From Hyphomicrobiales bacterium (GTDB lineage Bacteria; Pseudomonadota; Alphaproteobacteria; Rhizobiales; Beijerinckiaceae): a stretch of 32,407 nt of DNA. Made by a program: the position numbers and the translations under genes. The notes beneath the pieces are model-generated. The model saw only the letters and a list, made by a program, of their open reading frames with translations, was not told the DNA's origin and did no database searches. Position 1 is the stretch's first letter; each line of letters begins with the position of its first letter. Positions 1 to 6,163 of the stretch are shown here, one piece after another. The stretch covers positions 1 through 32,407 of the forward strand of contig JAFAQA010000399.1 of assembly GCA_019246665.1 (NCBI GenBank), read 5' to 3'.

Positions 1-341
1 GTCCAACCCTCGGCGAGGATCGACGGCACGAGCACCGCGCTGGGATGGCCGGCCAAGGCGACGTCATCATAGTCGAGCACATGGGCGGCGACGCCATTGA
101 CGAAAGCGGCGTCGGGCGCCAACAGGTTGCGACCCGAGGGGATTTCGGGGGCTGCATCGTTTTGCAACACCGTGGGGACCATTGCTGACACGATGCGCAC
201 CGGCTCTTCGGCCGCCCCCGCGATCATCACGCCGACGCAGTCCGCAAATCCGATCTTCGCGGCCCGGACACAACTCTCCGGCAGGCCGTCATGGCTGATG
301 CTCGCGACGAAATCCGCTGATTGCTTGGTAATGTTGAGCAT
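1..341 (-). CDS. MmgE/PrpD family protein, N-terminal part (cut by window edge)
   Basis: The first 113 codons of a protein whose 3' end lies outside the window. The sequence shows a helical N-terminus and then the segment HVLDYDDVALAGHPSAV, which matches the conserved D-Y-D-D...G-H-P-S block of the MmgE/PrpD family. That family includes 2-methylcitrate dehydratase and cis-aconitate decarboxylase, and acts on small tricarboxylic or branched acids in the cytoplasm. The ATG at 341 lies 10 bases after the stop of the acyl-CoA dehydrogenase gene and is preceded by GAGGCG, so it is the last visible gene of the long minus-strand operon. Its exact reaction cannot be read from the fragment. In this context a hydratase/dehydratase or decarboxylase step on the operon's substrate is my inference. 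Confidence 0.85.
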   Translation of the reverse strand, partial: MLNITKQSADFVASISHDGLPESCVRAAKIGFADCVGVMIAGAAEEPVRIVSAMVPTVLQNDAAPEIPSGRNLLAPDAAFVNGVAAHVLDYDDVALAGHPSAVLVPSILAEGW

Positions 342-351
342 GGGTTGCGCC

Positions 352-1551
352 TCAATAGGACCGGGGAAGGCCGAGGACGTGCTGCGCCACATAGGCGAGC
401 ACGAGATTCGTCGAGATCGGCGCCGTCTGATAGATGCGCGCCTCGCGCCATTTACGTTCGATGTCGTATTCCTGCGCGAAACCGAAACCACCATGGGTCT
501 GCAACGCGGTGTCGGCGGCTTTCCACGTCGCTTCGGAGGCGAGCAGCTTGGCGATGTTGGCATCCGCTCCACACGGCCTGCCGGCATCGAAGAGCGCTGC
601 GGCTCGCCGGCACATCAGGTCGGCGGCCTCGAGCTCGGCATAGGCGCGGGCGAGCGGAAACTGCACCCCCTGGTTCTGCCCGATCGGTCGCTCGAAGACC
701 CGACGCTCATTCGCATAATCGACACCCTTCTTGAGCAGCCAACGTCCGTCGCCCACGCATTCGGAGGCGACGAGGATGCGTTCGGCATTCATCCCATCGA
801 GGATGTAGCGAAAGCCCTGGCCCTCCTCACCGATCAGATCCTCAACCGGCACCTTCAGGTTCTCGATAAAGACTTCGGTGGTGTTGTGATTGATGAGCGC
901 CTTGATGGGCCGGATCTCGATGCCGTTTCCCTTGGCCTTCCTCAAATCGACGAGGAACACCGAAAGTCCTTCGGTGCGCTTCTTGACCTGCTCACGGGGC
1001 GTCGTTCGGGCGAGGAGCAGCATCAGATCGGAATGAAGGGCGCGCGATGTCCAAACCTTTTGCCCGTTGACTATGTAGTGGTCGCCTTGCCGCACAGCGC
1101 GTGTCTTTAGCTGGGTGGTGTCAGATCCGGTCGTGGGCTCCGTGACGCCGAAGGCCTGCAGACGCAACTCGCCGGAGGCGATGCCGGGCAGATAGCGCTG
1201 CTTTTGCTTCTCGTTGCCGTGCCGCAGAAGCGTTCCCATGATGTACATTTGAGCGTGAGCGGGGCTTGCCGTGCAGCCTGACGCGTTGATCTCCTCCAAG
1301 ATCACGGCCGCCGCCCGCAACGGCAGGCCGGCGCCACCGTACTCCTCTGGAATCAGGGCCCCCAAAAATCCGGATTTGGTCAACGCCTGGACGAATTCGG
1401 TGGGATACGCCCTCTTATCATCGAGGTCGCGCCAGTACTCGCCGGGGAAGCCCTCGCAAATGCGTCGAACGGAATGGCGCAATTCCGGATAATCCTCGCC
1501 AAGAGCAAGGGTCACCGCGGTATCGGGAGAGGCCGTGTCACGGCGGTTCAT
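352..1551 (-). CDS. Acyl-CoA dehydrogenase
   Basis: A 399-residue flavoprotein of normal family length that introduces the alpha-beta double bond into an acyl-CoA, passing electrons to ETF. Visible blocks are the N-terminal helical domain (LIPEEYGGAGLP, 67-77), the flavin-contact strand FGVTEPTTGSDT (134-145), NGQKVWTS (162-169) and the C-terminal helical part with QTHGGFGF (351-358). The usual C-terminal catalytic Glu (Y-E-G-T) is not there; the aligned stretch reads RIYQTAPIS. A Glu is present in NAER (E257), the place used by isovaleryl-CoA and long-chain dehydrogenases. The start at 1551 follows AAAGGA by 6 bases and lies 11 bases after the aldolase gene. The placement suggests a branched or dicarboxylic acyl-CoA substrate, which is inference. 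Confidence 0.9.
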   Translation of the reverse strand: MNRRDTASPDTAVTLALGEDYPELRHSVRRICEGFPGEYWRDLDDKRAYPTEFVQALTKSGFLGALIPEEYGGAGLPLRAAAVILEEINASGCTASPAHAQMYIMGTLLRHGNEKQKQRYLPGIASGELRLQAFGVTEPTTGSDTTQLKTRAVRQGDHYIVNGQKVWTSRALHSDLMLLLARTTPREQVKKRTEGLSVFLVDLRKAKGNGIEIRPIKALINHNTTEVFIENLKVPVEDLIGEEGQGFRYILDGMNAERILVASECVGDGRWLLKKGVDYANERRVFERPIGQNQGVQFPLARAYAELEAADLMCRRAAALFDAGRPCGADANIAKLLASEATWKAADTALQTHGGFGFAQEYDIERKWREARIYQTAPISTNLVLAYVAQHVLGLPRSY

Positions 1552-1562
1552 CGGCTATCCTT

Positions 1563-2507
1563 TCAGGGCGCGGCCACGCCAGGGCGGCGATAAGTCTTGG
1601 GAAGGCCGGCGCGCGCGATTGCGCCCGAGAAGCGCTCTCCGGGTAGCCACGCCTCGACCTCGTGACGCAGCGCGACCAGGGCCTCCAAATCGACGCCGGT
1701 ATCGAATCCGAGCTGTTCCAGGAGGAAGACCGTGTCCTCCGTATCGATGTTGCCCGTCGCGCCAGGAGCGAATGGACAGCCGCCGAGGCCCGCGAGAGAG
1801 GCATCGAAGGCTCGAACCCCGACCTCGATCGCGGCGGTGACGTTGGCGAGCCCGAGGCCTCGGGTATCGTGGAAATGGCAGGCGACGGGCAGCTTCCCGA
1901 CAGCCTTGGTGATGTCCCCAACGATGCGGCGAACCTGCCCCGGATCGCCGTAGCCGACCGTATCGGCGACGATGACCTCATCAGCGCCGGCCTCGGCAAG
2001 CCGGATCGCAAGCTCGATGACCCGCTTTTCGGGGACCGCGCCCTGGATAGTGCAGCCAAAAGCCGTCGCAATGCCGGCACCGAGCGTCACCCGGGGGCCG
2101 GGGGCCGCATTGCGGAGCGCCACGATGCGCCCAAAATCCGCAAGCGACTCCTCGGTCGTGCGCCGGACATTGGCGAGGTTGTGCTCCTCGCTAGCGGAGA
2201 GGACATAGTTGATCCGCGGCAAACCGGTCGCGATCGCCCGCGCGGCGCCCTTAAGATTGGGCACCAGCGCGGAGGCCGTGAAGCCGCCAAGCGCGATCGC
2301 GCCTCTCGCTACAGCTTCCGCATCCCCGAATTGGGGCACGACCTTGGCAGGAACGAAGGATGTCACTTCGATTTCACGGATGCCTGCCTTGGCGGCCCGT
2401 CGGCACCAGGTGAGCTTGCGCTCCGTCGCCAGCACAGTCCGCACCATCTGGATCCCGTCGCGTGGCCCGACTTCGCGGACACAAGCACGCTCACGCATGA
2501 TCTTCAT
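1563..2507 (-). CDS. Hydroxymethylglutaryl-CoA lyase family aldolase
   Basis: A 314-residue TIM-barrel aldolase of the HMG-CoA lyase (DRE-TIM metallolyase) family, which cleaves 3-hydroxy-3-methylglutaryl-CoA to acetyl-CoA and acetoacetate. All family signatures are present: GPRDG with R16-D17, E47 in IEVTSF, the metal-binding H211/H213 in CHFHD, the catalytic C244 in LGGCPFAPGATGN and N253. The start at 2507 is preceded by AAAGGGAA and sits 6 bases after the crotonase stop, so the two are cotranscribed. It is probably the carbon-carbon cleavage step of the locus. The substrate may be a homologue of HMG-CoA, because no biotin carboxylase of the leucine pathway is encoded nearby. Confidence 0.92.
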   Translation of the reverse strand: MKIMRERACVREVGPRDGIQMVRTVLATERKLTWCRRAAKAGIREIEVTSFVPAKVVPQFGDAEAVARGAIALGGFTASALVPNLKGAARAIATGLPRINYVLSASEEHNLANVRRTTEESLADFGRIVALRNAAPGPRVTLGAGIATAFGCTIQGAVPEKRVIELAIRLAEAGADEVIVADTVGYGDPGQVRRIVGDITKAVGKLPVACHFHDTRGLGLANVTAAIEVGVRAFDASLAGLGGCPFAPGATGNIDTEDTVFLLEQLGFDTGVDLEALVALRHEVEAWLPGERFSGAIARAGLPKTYRRPGVAAP

Positions 2508-2513
2508 TTCCCT

Positions 2514-3308
2514 TTAGAGGCCGCGGAAATTTGGCTTACGGCGCTCGTTGTAGGCGAGCACCCCCTCTCGCCGGTCCTCCGTCGGAACCATTCGATTGTA
2601 CGCCTCGATCTCATATGCGAGGCCGTCCCATATCGACATCTGCAAGCCGCGACGGATGGCCTGCTTGGCCTGGCGCACTGCGATCGGGCCGTTGCCGGCA
2701 ATGCGCCGGGCAGTCGCGAGCGCCGCGTCGCGCAATCCCTCGGGCGGCAACACCTTGTTGACGAGTCCCCATTTCTCGGCCTCTTCCGCCGAGAAAGGCG
2801 CCCCAGTGAGGATCAGCTCTTGGGCTCGCCTCTCGCCGACGGCCCGCGGCAGGTTTTGCGTCCCGCCCGCGCCCGGCATGATGCCGAGCGTTACCTCCGT
2901 GAGAGCGAAACGCGCATTCGTCGAGGCATAGACGAAGTCGGCCGCCGCCGCGACCTCGCAGCCCCCGCCGTAAGCCGCCCCGTTCACGCAGGCGATCAGC
3001 GGGACCGGGCAGCCCATGAGGGCCCGCACCATCCGCTCAAAAATCACGTGCTGCGACTGCCATGCGGCATCGGACATGCCCTTGCGTTCCTTCAGATCTC
3101 CGCCGGCGCAGAAGGCCTTCTCGCCGCGCCCGGTGACGATGACCACGCGAACGTCTTCGAGGTTCAACAGGAGGCCTTCGAACAGCTCCATGAGATCGAG
3201 GCCCATGCGCGTGTTCATGGCGTTTGCTGCCTCGGGCCGATCGAGTGTGACGAGCAAGATGTGCCTGTCGATGTGTTCGAGGAACAACGTCTCGAAATCA
3301 TTGCGCAT
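2514..3308 (-). CDS. Enoyl-CoA hydratase/isomerase family protein
   Basis: A 264-residue crotonase-fold enzyme that would add water to an enoyl-CoA. The oxyanion-hole segment FCAGGDLKER (67-75) and the GAAYGGGCEVA block (110-120) are present. The two catalytic glutamates of the hydratases appear as E118 (CEVA) and E138 (LTEVTLG), so hydratase activity is plausible rather than only isomerase. I place the start at 3308 because AAAGGAG lies 6 bases upstream and the homologous region begins there, although the frame stays open to 3443. The start overlaps the end of the CoA-transferase gene by 11 bases. In context it resembles the 3-methylglutaconyl-CoA hydratase step between the dehydrogenase and the lyase; that assignment is inference. 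Confidence 0.9.
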   Translation of the reverse strand: MRNDFETLFLEHIDRHILLVTLDRPEAANAMNTRMGLDLMELFEGLLLNLEDVRVVIVTGRGEKAFCAGGDLKERKGMSDAAWQSQHVIFERMVRALMGCPVPLIACVNGAAYGGGCEVAAAADFVYASTNARFALTEVTLGIMPGAGGTQNLPRAVGERRAQELILTGAPFSAEEAEKWGLVNKVLPPEGLRDAALATARRIAGNGPIAVRQAKQAIRRGLQMSIWDGLAYEIEAYNRMVPTEDRREGVLAYNERRKPNFRGL

Positions 3309-4461
3309 TGACCACTCCTTTCGGGGCGGCGGCTCCGAGCAATGCGTTGTGCTCGCCAAGCTTGGGGGCGCCAGTGCGTGCCCGGGGCCTTTTCCCCTCG
3401 AACGCCAACGGGACCCCGACCAGATCGATACCATCGGCTCCACAACGGACGGTCATATCGAGGGCCCGGGTCTGCGGGTGCTCGGCGACCTGATCGGTGG
3501 TGAGGAGCGGAGCATTCGGGACGCCGGCGGCATCCAGCGTGTCCCCGAGCGCGGCGGTTTTTTGGGGGCGAACCGCCGCCGCGATCTGAGGAAGCAACCG
3601 ATCGCGGTTGACGACGCGCATCGGGTTGGTTGCGAAATCCGGATCTTGCGCCAAGGCAGGTAAATTCAGAGCCGCGCAGAGCTTGCGATAGAGATTGTCG
3701 TTCCCCGCCGCGATCATGAGCCAGCCATCGGCCGTCTCGAACGCCTGGTAAGGCACGATCTCGGCAATTCCCGAACCATGAGGCTTTCGGACGTCACCAG
3801 AGGCCGCGTAGCCGGCAAGAGGGATGGTCATCCAGGCGAGGCCTGTCTCGTAAAGGGAGGTTGCCACGGTCCGCCCCTCGCCGGTGCTGTTGCGCGCCAG
3901 AAGAGCCGATAGCATTCCGATGACGGTCCACATGCCGGAGCCCATGTCGATCAGCGACACGCCGACGCGCACCGGCGGCCTTTCACCCTCGCCGGTGACG
4001 CTCATGATGCCTGTACTGGCCTGGGCGAGCGGATCATAGCCTGGCTTCTTCGCCAGAGGTCCTGTCGCTCCGAATGCGCCAATATCGCACCAGATGAGCG
4101 ACGGCTTTTCGGTTCGCAGAGCCGCGGCCGTGAGCCCGAACTTCTCAAGGATTCCCGGCCGCAGATTCTGAATCACCGCATCGGCCTTCGCCAGGATCAA
4201 CGTTCTGAGAGCCTCTACGTCATCTTCCCGCGAGAAATCCACCGTCACTCCTTCCTTGCCCCGATTAAGGCAATGGAACGACGTGGAGGAGCCATTCCAG
4301 AAGGGCGGCCCCCAGCCGCGGGCATAGTCGCCACCATCAGGGTTTTCCACCTTGATCACTCGCGCACCAAGATCGGCCAGGATCTGCCCGGCAAATGGGG
4401 CAGCGACGCTGTGGCCGAGTTCGACAACAGTGATGCCGCTCAGGGGTCTATCAATGCTCAT
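3298..4461 (-). CDS. CaiB/BaiF family (class III) CoA-transferase
   Basis: A 387-residue class III CoA-transferase, which moves CoA between a donor thioester and a free carboxylic acid through an aspartyl-CoA anhydride. It opens with the typical SGITVVELGHSVAAPFAGQILADLGA region. The candidate catalytic Asp is D172 in SLIDMGSG, at the position of Asp169 in formyl-CoA transferase. Length is normal for single-domain members. The start at 4461 is preceded by AGGA at good spacing. It is the first gene after the 78-base gap that carries a palindrome shared with the livK promoter region, so it probably has its own promoter. Its likely role is activation of the imported acid, which is inference. Confidence 0.9.
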   Translation of the reverse strand: MSIDRPLSGITVVELGHSVAAPFAGQILADLGARVIKVENPDGGDYARGWGPPFWNGSSTSFHCLNRGKEGVTVDFSREDDVEALRTLILAKADAVIQNLRPGILEKFGLTAAALRTEKPSLIWCDIGAFGATGPLAKKPGYDPLAQASTGIMSVTGEGERPPVRVGVSLIDMGSGMWTVIGMLSALLARNSTGEGRTVATSLYETGLAWMTIPLAGYAASGDVRKPHGSGIAEIVPYQAFETADGWLMIAAGNDNLYRKLCAALNLPALAQDPDFATNPMRVVNRDRLLPQIAAAVRPQKTAALGDTLDAAGVPNAPLLTTDQVAEHPQTRALDMTVRCGADGIDLVGVPLAFEGKRPRARTGAPKLGEHNALLGAAAPKGVVNAQ

Positions 4462-4539: not shown

Positions 4540-5349
4540 TCATGATTTGTCCATCGCATTGTCGGCGACGAGAACAGCCCCGTTGACGAAGCTCGCGCGG
4601 TCGGAGAGTGCGAACACGATCAGGTTGGCCAATTCTTCCGGTGTGCCCCAGCGCGTATTGCGCATCGAGTTGTTGGCCGACCAGAGACGGCGTTCCGTAT
4701 CCGCCTCTTCGGCGCTGAGGTGGCGCTTGGCGAGTTCGCGTTCCCACTTGGAGAAGCGCTCGGGCGTGTTCACGAAGCCAGGTACAACGCAGTTTACGCG
4801 GATGTTGTGTGGCCCAAACTCATTGGCAAGGATCTTGGAGAAGCGGATCTCTGCCGACTTCGCAGGTCCGGTGCAGGACGACAAAAACGGGGGCATGGTC
4901 ACCATGATGCCGGTCTCGCCGGCGACGTTGACGATGCTTCCCCCATTCTGCTCGACCATGAGGGGGATGATGCGCTGGCAGATGCGAAACTGGGCGAAGA
5001 AGTTGATAGCCATGCCGTATTGCAATTCTTCGTCCGTAACCTCGAGAAACGGCTTGTATGTGCCGGTGCCGGCATTGTTGACCAGCATGTCGATGCGGCC
5101 CAGACGCTCCTTGGCGACGCGCGGCAACTGTGCGATTTGGGAAAGATCCGTGACATCCAATGAAAATGTTTCCACCCGCGCGCCGGTCGTCTTCGCGATG
5201 TCGGCGCGCGCTTCCTCGAGGGCTGATTGCCGCCGTGCGCAAATAAGCACCGCTGCTCCTTCTTCGGCAAGCAAGCGTGCTGTCTCGAGCCCGATCCCCT
5301 TGCTGCCGCCCGTGATGACGGCAGTTTTCCCCTCCATCCCGAGTTTCAT
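4540..5349 (-). CDS. Short-chain dehydrogenase/reductase family protein with altered active site
   Basis: A 269-residue Rossmann-fold protein of the SDR family. The cofactor motif TGGSKGIG (13-20), NNAG (91-94), the catalytic-type N116 and the VPGFVNT segment are intact. The catalytic Tyr of Y-x-x-x-K is replaced: aligning K164 and the invariant IRVN shows T160 where Tyr should be, and the Ser position 13 residues earlier is G147. The protein therefore keeps the NAD(P)-binding fold but probably not classical SDR chemistry. The ATG at 5349 is preceded by GAGGAA and overlaps the stop of the small upstream ORF as TGATG; a GTG one codon earlier is possible. It sits between the transporter genes and the acyl-CoA genes. 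Confidence 0.85.
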   Translation of the reverse strand: MKLGMEGKTAVITGGSKGIGLETARLLAEEGAAVLICARRQSALEEARADIAKTTGARVETFSLDVTDLSQIAQLPRVAKERLGRIDMLVNNAGTGTYKPFLEVTDEELQYGMAINFFAQFRICQRIIPLMVEQNGGSIVNVAGETGIMVTMPPFLSSCTGPAKSAEIRFSKILANEFGPHNIRVNCVVPGFVNTPERFSKWERELAKRHLSAEEADTERRLWSANNSMRNTRWGTPEELANLIVFALSDRASFVNGAVLVADNAMDKS

Positions 5350-5471
5350 CACGCGTATTCCTCAGTGAATGGACACGAAGAGCTCATCGTAAATCTTCCG
5401 TCTCCTGTGGTCGAAGAAATTACAATCCCATTTAATACTTTACATTCCTTGGTGTTTTTGAAATTCATCAT
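5349..5471 (-). CDS. Small 40-residue ORF translationally coupled between livF and the SDR gene
   Basis: A 40-residue reading frame (begins MMNFKNTKEC, ends SSSCPFTEEYA) fills the gap between livF and the SDR gene. Its ATG at 5471 overlaps the livF stop as TGATG and its stop overlaps the SDR start in the same way. GAGGAG at 5480-5485 lies 8 bases before the ATG, an ideal ribosome-binding site. The stretch is only about 40% GC by my count, far below its neighbours, and uses AT-rich codons. There is no hydrophobic segment long enough for a membrane helix; two Cys (10 and 33) and Ser/Thr runs stand out. I recognise no family. It may encode a small protein, or be a coupling relic of a decayed gene. 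Confidence 0.5.
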   Translation of the reverse strand: MMNFKNTKECKVLNGIVISSTTGDGRFTMSSSCPFTEEYA

Positions 5472-6163
5472 CACAAATACTCCTCGGACAGAGCAAGATC
5501 CTGGATTTCTGCCACTGTACCGCTGCGCCGGACTTCCCCGCCGCGCATGACATAGCCACGTGCGGCAAGCTTGAGCGCTGGCCTCGCCATCTGCTCCGTC
5601 ATCAGGATTGTGGTGCCGCGTGCCTGCATGTGCCGAACGGCTTCGCTGATGCGGGTGATCCACACGGGCGCCAGCCCTAGGAAGGGTTCGTCGAGCAATA
5701 GCAACGGCGGAAACGAACTCATCGCCCTGGCGAGTGCCACGATCTGCTGCTGCCCGCCGGAGAGCTGGCCCGCCGGCTGCTTGGCGCGTTCCTCGAGGAG
5801 AGGAAAGACGGACACAAGCCATTCCCACGATTGCCGCTGGCGCGCCGCGCCGAGGCGGTAAGCGCCAGTGAGAACATTGTCTTCCACCGACATCGTCGGG
5901 AAGACGCGGCGGCCCTCCGGCGAATAACCAATACCCGCTCGGGCCCGCTCGTCGCAGGACAGCGCGCTCACGTCCCGCCCGGCGAAGCGCACAATCCCGC
6001 TCGTGGTGCAGACAAGGCCGATGACCGCGTTGATGAGGCTCGACTTGCCGGCACCGTTGGCGCCGACGAGCAGCACGGTCTCGCCGGCCTCTGCCGAGAT
6101 TGAGACCCGACGCAGTGCCGTGATGCCGCCGTAGCGAACCTCGAGATCTTCGATCGCGAGCAT
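5471..6163 (-). CDS. livF: Branched-chain amino acid-type ABC transporter ATP-binding protein LivF
   Basis: A 230-residue ABC ATPase of the LivF type, the second of two nucleotide-binding subunits of a HAAT-family importer at the inner face of the membrane. Walker A is GANGAGKS (34-41), the signature is LSGGQQQ, and Walker B is LLLLDEPFLGLAP. The TEQMARPALKLAARGYVM stretch toward the C-terminus is typical of LivF rather than LivG. Its start overlaps the livG stop as TGATG, showing tight coupling. The set of five liv genes is complete, but the substrate need not be an amino acid; many members carry aromatic or dicarboxylic acids, and the downstream acyl-CoA genes favour an organic acid. Confidence 0.92.
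   Translation of the reverse strand: MLAIEDLEVRYGGITALRRVSISAEAGETVLLVGANGAGKSSLINAVIGLVCTTSGIVRFAGRDVSALSCDERARAGIGYSPEGRRVFPTMSVEDNVLTGAYRLGAARQRQSWEWLVSVFPLLEERAKQPAGQLSGGQQQIVALARAMSSFPPLLLLDEPFLGLAPVWITRISEAVRHMQARGTTILMTEQMARPALKLAARGYVMRGGEVRRSGTVAEIQDLALSEEYL

Follow-up and report, generated by a model that had tools for sequence, protein, structure and literature searches.

A 40-codon open frame between livF and an SDR gene in a Hyphomicrobiales operon: probably the scar of a lost MmgE/PrpD-family gene

The small open frame that separates livF from an SDR oxidoreductase gene in the window analyzed here (32,407 nucleotides, the entire contig C438 of a draft Hyphomicrobiales genome of 4.86 Mb in 546 contigs, 92.7% complete and 3.5% contaminated) is probably a gene-replacement scar, in which a prpD gene has been lost and the DNA now filling its place would still deliver ribosomes to the SDR gene. 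The loss of prpD between livF and SDR in the lineage of the window is well supported by the comparison of related loci, and the 40-residue frame probably does not represent a new protein family.

The frame belongs to a minus-strand operon with the gene order substrate-binding protein, livH, livM, livG, livF, small frame, SDR and catabolic genes, the latter coding for a CoA-transferase III, an enoyl-CoA hydratase, an HMGL-like lyase and an acyl-CoA dehydrogenase (Table 1). The names livH and livM are presumptive, being taken from gene order, and the LivF model matched the product of the gene given that name below the model's cut-off. The initial annotation had described a 40-residue frame filling the livF-SDR gap with TGATG on both sides, and its coordinates, reading frame and junctions are confirmed: the livF stop TGA (5473-5471) shares one base with the ATG at 5471, and the stop of the small frame (5351-5349) overlaps the SDR ATG at 5349. 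It had also correctly noted the same TGATG layout at the livG-livF junction (at 6163) and a well-placed GAGGAG Shine-Dalgarno (SD) sequence, which lies 8 nt 5' of the ATG. Both junctions of the small frame also read GTGATG, and in-frame GTG starts are possible, which would give a -4 (NTGA) layout.

Table 1. Features of the operon around the small frame (window coordinates)
Feature	Coordinates	Strand	Basis or remark
LivF-type ABC transporter ATPase	5471..6163	-	PF00005; name LivF from operon context
GAGGAG Shine-Dalgarno in LivF C-terminus (codes EE of EEYL)	5480..5485	-	sequence
18-nt imperfect direct repeat, upstream copy, livF/ORF junction	5468..5485	-	78% identity
40-codon frame, apparently in place of a lost prpD gene	5349..5471	-	reads MMNFKNTKECKVLNGIVISSTTGDGRFTMSSSCPFTEEYA
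AT-rich filler, 39.6% GC, no detectable relative, single copy in genome	5365..5460	-	composition and searches
18-nt imperfect direct repeat, downstream copy, ORF/SDR junction	5346..5363	-	78% identity
SDR oxidoreductase, first gene downstream of the frame	4540..5349	-	ATG start, GTG at 5352 possible
CoA-transferase III, enoyl-CoA hydratase, HMGL-like lyase, acyl-CoA dehydrogenase	352..4461	-	family search
Second PrpD-type gene, probable start, operon end	12..341	-	weak match, 28%, E 0.029

The composition of the frame, initially put at about 40% GC and unlike its surroundings, is indeed anomalous (39.0% GC, where the window as a whole has 62.6%). The most AT-rich 120 bp anywhere in the window (5362-5481, 36.7% GC) overlap the small frame, and the second AT-richest separate stretch of the window has 44.2% GC. 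As 9.9% of 20,000 dinucleotide shuffles also leave the frame open, its openness is by itself weak evidence. The antisense frame of the AT-rich piece (5350-5469, plus strand) is fully open as well, and its GC by codon position, as reasoned from the computed values, is more gene-like than that of the sense frame. Considered as an inserted gene fragment, this antisense frame returned weak matches only (E 0.09 to 6) in plasmids, PDB, Pfam, NCBIfam and PHROGs.

A search with the SDR protein in 397 genomes of the family recovered orthologs in C. asaccharovorans (G136, 90% identity to the window protein) and C. reniformis (G118, 70%). In C. asaccharovorans the livF-SDR gap measures 1,381 bases, versus 121 in the window, and encodes a 461-residue protein with the MmgE/PrpD N- and C-terminal domains (PF03972 and PF19305). 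A scan of named genomes for the SDR gave 80 loci, from which 22 with 66-90% SDR identity were compared and 58 more distant ones (30-38% identity) left out. Genes of the liv series lie directly upstream of SDR in 9 of these 22, and the locus L101 of G606, with the full order substrate-binding protein-livH-livM-livG-livF-prpD-SDR, makes ten; the C. asaccharovorans and C. reniformis contigs recur among the loci as L015 and L032 and were each counted once. The other 13 of the 22 have no livF ortholog directly upstream in the DNA examined and are uninformative on the gap. A prpD gene (prpD1) lies between livF and SDR in nine of the ten loci with both genes, the exception being L033. All nine matched stretches (450-461 residues) are free of internal stops, and the eight other prpD1 proteins share 53-68% identity with the C. 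asaccharovorans one. Homologous loci that do not carry the ORF, named in the initial annotation as counter-evidence to a small protein, are thus present.

Wider searches, with the genome of the window included, found the SDR ortholog in 3 of 397 genomes of the family, 2 of 397 of the order and 1 of 385 of the class; within the genus of G136 one of four genomes has it, and no ortholog was found on plasmids (E up to 1e-80). prpD1 was found in one of 397 genomes of the order (E up to 1e-120). At nine loci, from Xanthobacteraceae and other alphaproteobacterial MAGs (L023-L026, L028-L031 and L034), an SDR of 70-74% identity occurs without adjoining liv-CaiB orthologs in the DNA examined, and in five of them a distant liv cluster is present on the opposite strand. 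In Candidatus Burkholderia verschuerenii (L035, 2001-2803) the SDR match is split into two pieces in different frames and the liv order differs, so that to judge from its sequence this operon looks as if it is decaying. In the window itself, a probable second PrpD-type gene is kept at the end of the operon despite the loss of prpD1; it is cut by the contig end (window 1-351) and runs on in contig C397 (L098), with a 147-base identical overlap.

The edges of the small frame may be comparable to those of prpD in the relatives. The string GAGGAR-TAY-CTG-TGATG precedes prpD in five of the eight prpD-bearing loci inspected (L015-L019), the other starts being a TAATG (L086), an ATGA overlap (L022) and a loose gap (L032). 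Compared by eye, the SD and start of the small frame appear to correspond to those of prpD in these relatives, and so provide no independent evidence for a small gene. As to the far end of prpD, six of nine carriers (L015-L018, L086 and L101) have its stop overlapping the SDR start in the -4 layout, which indicates a tight junction between SDR and the preceding gene before prpD was lost. The 12-20 bases before the SDR start of the window resemble the end of the C. asaccharovorans prpD (p 0.0015-0.0355 for three lengths, without correction for the 9 loci and 3 lengths tried), and the downstream copy of the 18-nt repeat resembles the last codons of that gene together with the SDR ribosome-binding site. 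The best p per locus was 0.0035-0.10 for the other seven carriers tested and 0.21 for L033, and this similarity may reflect a shared SD-like composition. Between the edges, aligning the frame and its middle with the C. asaccharovorans prpD on both strands gave nothing better than shuffled sequence (local score 16, shuffle mean 16.8), and the status of the frame as a remnant hence rests on its place and edges. The window frame shares with the MmgE/PrpD gene of these operons its place, apparently its start signal and, in comparison with one relative, possibly similar last codons, but has no MmgE/PrpD sequence in the middle and 40 rather than about 450-460 codons. The suggestion in the initial annotation of a degraded insert kept for coupling comes close to the best reading; hidden from a view of the sequence alone were that the stretch appears to replace a whole MmgE/PrpD gene while carrying the start signal of prpD, and that its middle is not recognizable prpD sequence. 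A comparable arrangement is that of the in-frame deletion scars of the Keio collection, which reportedly keep the start and the last codons around a short unrelated filler and avoid polar effects; those scars are engineered, whereas the window frame is presumably a natural event with another filler.

The direction of change was examined with a concatenated protein tree of 8 genes from 11 loci, some of which lack some of the genes. In this tree the window branches as sister of a Chelatococcus/Bradyrhizobium group, which unites L015 with Bradyrhizobium/Tardiphaga/G606, with 100/100 on the relevant branches; on the other side lie the prpD carriers L019, L022 and L032, between which the prpD-less L033 falls with weak support (22/50). 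A tree of the SDR alone pairs the window with L015 only (83.7/83) and still nests it among prpD carriers. This nesting makes a loss in the window lineage the simplest reading, and by eye the fewest changes are two prpD losses, one in that lineage and one in L033. A prpD1 search of the genome of the window yielded four matches of 28-33% identity, with all 27 candidates scored; as the assembly is 92.7% complete, prpD1 could lie in a gap. The second prpD-less locus, L033, comes from a Hyphomonadaceae MAG, in which the same search recovered distant PrpD-type proteins alone (best 34%). Here an 84-nt stretch (5917-6000 of L033) is open, beginning at the old prpD start and continuing in frame into SDR, possibly forming an N-terminal SDR extension of 28 residues; 63% of shuffled DNA would be open by chance over this stretch. 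With chance openness of 10% and 63%, the two prpD-less cases do not prove selection.

The small frame has no coding signal in its codon usage. Its sense-frame codon score is -0.599, as against a mean of 0.193 and a minimum of -0.104 for 125 forty-codon stretches from nine operon genes, a comparison made harsher by the low GC of the frame; 46% of shuffled open frames equal or beat it, and 96% of 250 wrong-frame gene stretches score at least as high. Its GC by codon position (0.27/0.46/0.44) is also unlike that of the neighboring genes. Of 60 related genomes searched with the peptide, 14 contained matches at E of 1 or below, all but its own at E of at least 0.28, and a DNA search with 5349-5471 in 338 genomes of the family found only itself. 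No protein match was found in plasmids and phages; the DNA gave one match in each (E 0.4-0.5, not above chance), and one exact 23-base pattern found nothing above chance in viral contigs. The peptide had no match in Pfam, NCBIfam and PDB and a single one at chance level in PHROGs (E 0.097), in agreement with the initial remark that it resembles no known family.

These results bear most directly on the possibility that the frame is a true orphan gene for a microprotein, either foreign or newly arisen, which took the place of prpD and serves the transporter or the pathway. Its TGATG junctions on both sides, good SD and lack of a stop through 40 codons at 39% GC are what such a gene might display, but its SD and start appear to match those that prpD has in relatives, codon usage is no better than in shuffles, and no homolog above chance emerged from 59 other related genomes (protein), 337 others (DNA) or the plasmid, phage and family databases. 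We therefore consider this explanation unlikely, and the evidence so far makes a functional peptide improbable; the earlier proposals of a new small protein of the operon and of a peptide precursor both find no support, there being neither a homolog above chance nor a codon-usage signal for either. An assembly chimera, in which prpD is really present and the assembler has joined in a foreign AT-rich piece, is a still less probable account. The jump in composition, the fragmentation of the draft into 546 contigs and the failure to find relatives of the insert are compatible with it; yet both edges fall at the prpD start and stop with the junction signals kept, and prpD1 was found nowhere else in the assembly.

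The nearest known analogue of the small frame appears to be the mycobacterial interspersed repetitive units (MIRUs), which, according to PMC12548453, place a short ORF between co-directional genes with its stop overlapping the next start, allowing expression to be maintained. The window frame has this layout (TGATG, or GTGA), and the 18-nt direct repeat at both ends could be taken as a further sign of a MIRU-like mobile element, that is, a short ORF-carrying repeat that inserts at overlapping stop and start codons and stays coupled by the same logic. MIRUs are, however, repetitive and apparently mobile according to that source, whereas the window stretch lies at a site of gene loss and is single-copy: a search of its own genome with 5362-5466 found no second copy (best other match 15 nt, E 1.54), and none of the 337 other family genomes matched. 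Insertion alone would also leave the missing prpD unexplained, and the repeat may be merely two SD-plus-start signals, all of which renders a MIRU-like element improbable. Least credible of all is an element that acts in cis at the DNA or RNA level (promoter, terminator or attenuator) with an incidental open frame. The stretch is AT-rich and has a 16-bp near-palindrome around GAGCTC at 5375-5390, but it contains no sigma-70-type promoter-like or terminator-like site, its fold is not unusual (z +1.05) and it has no Rfam match at the gathering score.

Under the preferred reading of a gene-replacement scar, an MmgE/PrpD-family gene of about 1.38 kb has been lost between livF and SDR in the lineage of the window, where about 100 bp of unrelated AT-rich DNA now separate the old prpD start site from its old end. 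Ribosomes completing livF, or binding to the SD at the livF end, would still reach the prpD start, translate the 40 filler codons and terminate on the TGATG (or GTGA) at the SDR start, so that SDR translation would stay coupled and the message ribosome-covered. According to PMC12548453, coupling is most efficient when the spacing is between -4 and +3 nt and declines some 3-10 fold as it approaches +40 nt, RNA left untranslated is prone to Rho-dependent polarity, and short ORFs have been proposed to deliver ribosomes, a property that MIRUs may exploit. A prpD loss that kept an open frame up to the SDR start would thereby spare SDR and the later genes. Like the translationally coupled short upstream ORFs in that paper, the small frame ends close to the next start, at -1 nt if this is the ATG or at -4 nt if it is the GTG; it differs in that its start appears to be that of a full-length enzyme gene in relatives, and its coupling is putative. 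A bridging role for the small frame is thus plausible from its layout, and the peptide itself is probably without function. A literature search, mostly of material short of full texts, found no described case of this operon or of such scars.

There is a small chance that the stretch is instead a natural coupling cassette, in which, upon loss of an operon gene, a short foreign sequence with a frame open from the old start to the old stop was selected as a ribosome bridge or is becoming an orphan gene; if so, gene loss in tightly coupled operons would be a birthplace of microproteins. On the reading as a scar, the frame illustrates how a small gene with convincing junctions (an SD, TGATG on both sides and tight packing) may be no more than what an enzyme gene left behind when it was lost, although surveys of small ORFs based on these signals would count it as a gene. 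Should the bridge be under selection, it would offer a case in which one could test whether translational coupling determines the gene losses that an operon can survive. The window would also represent a variant of the pathway without one of its two PrpD-type enzymes.
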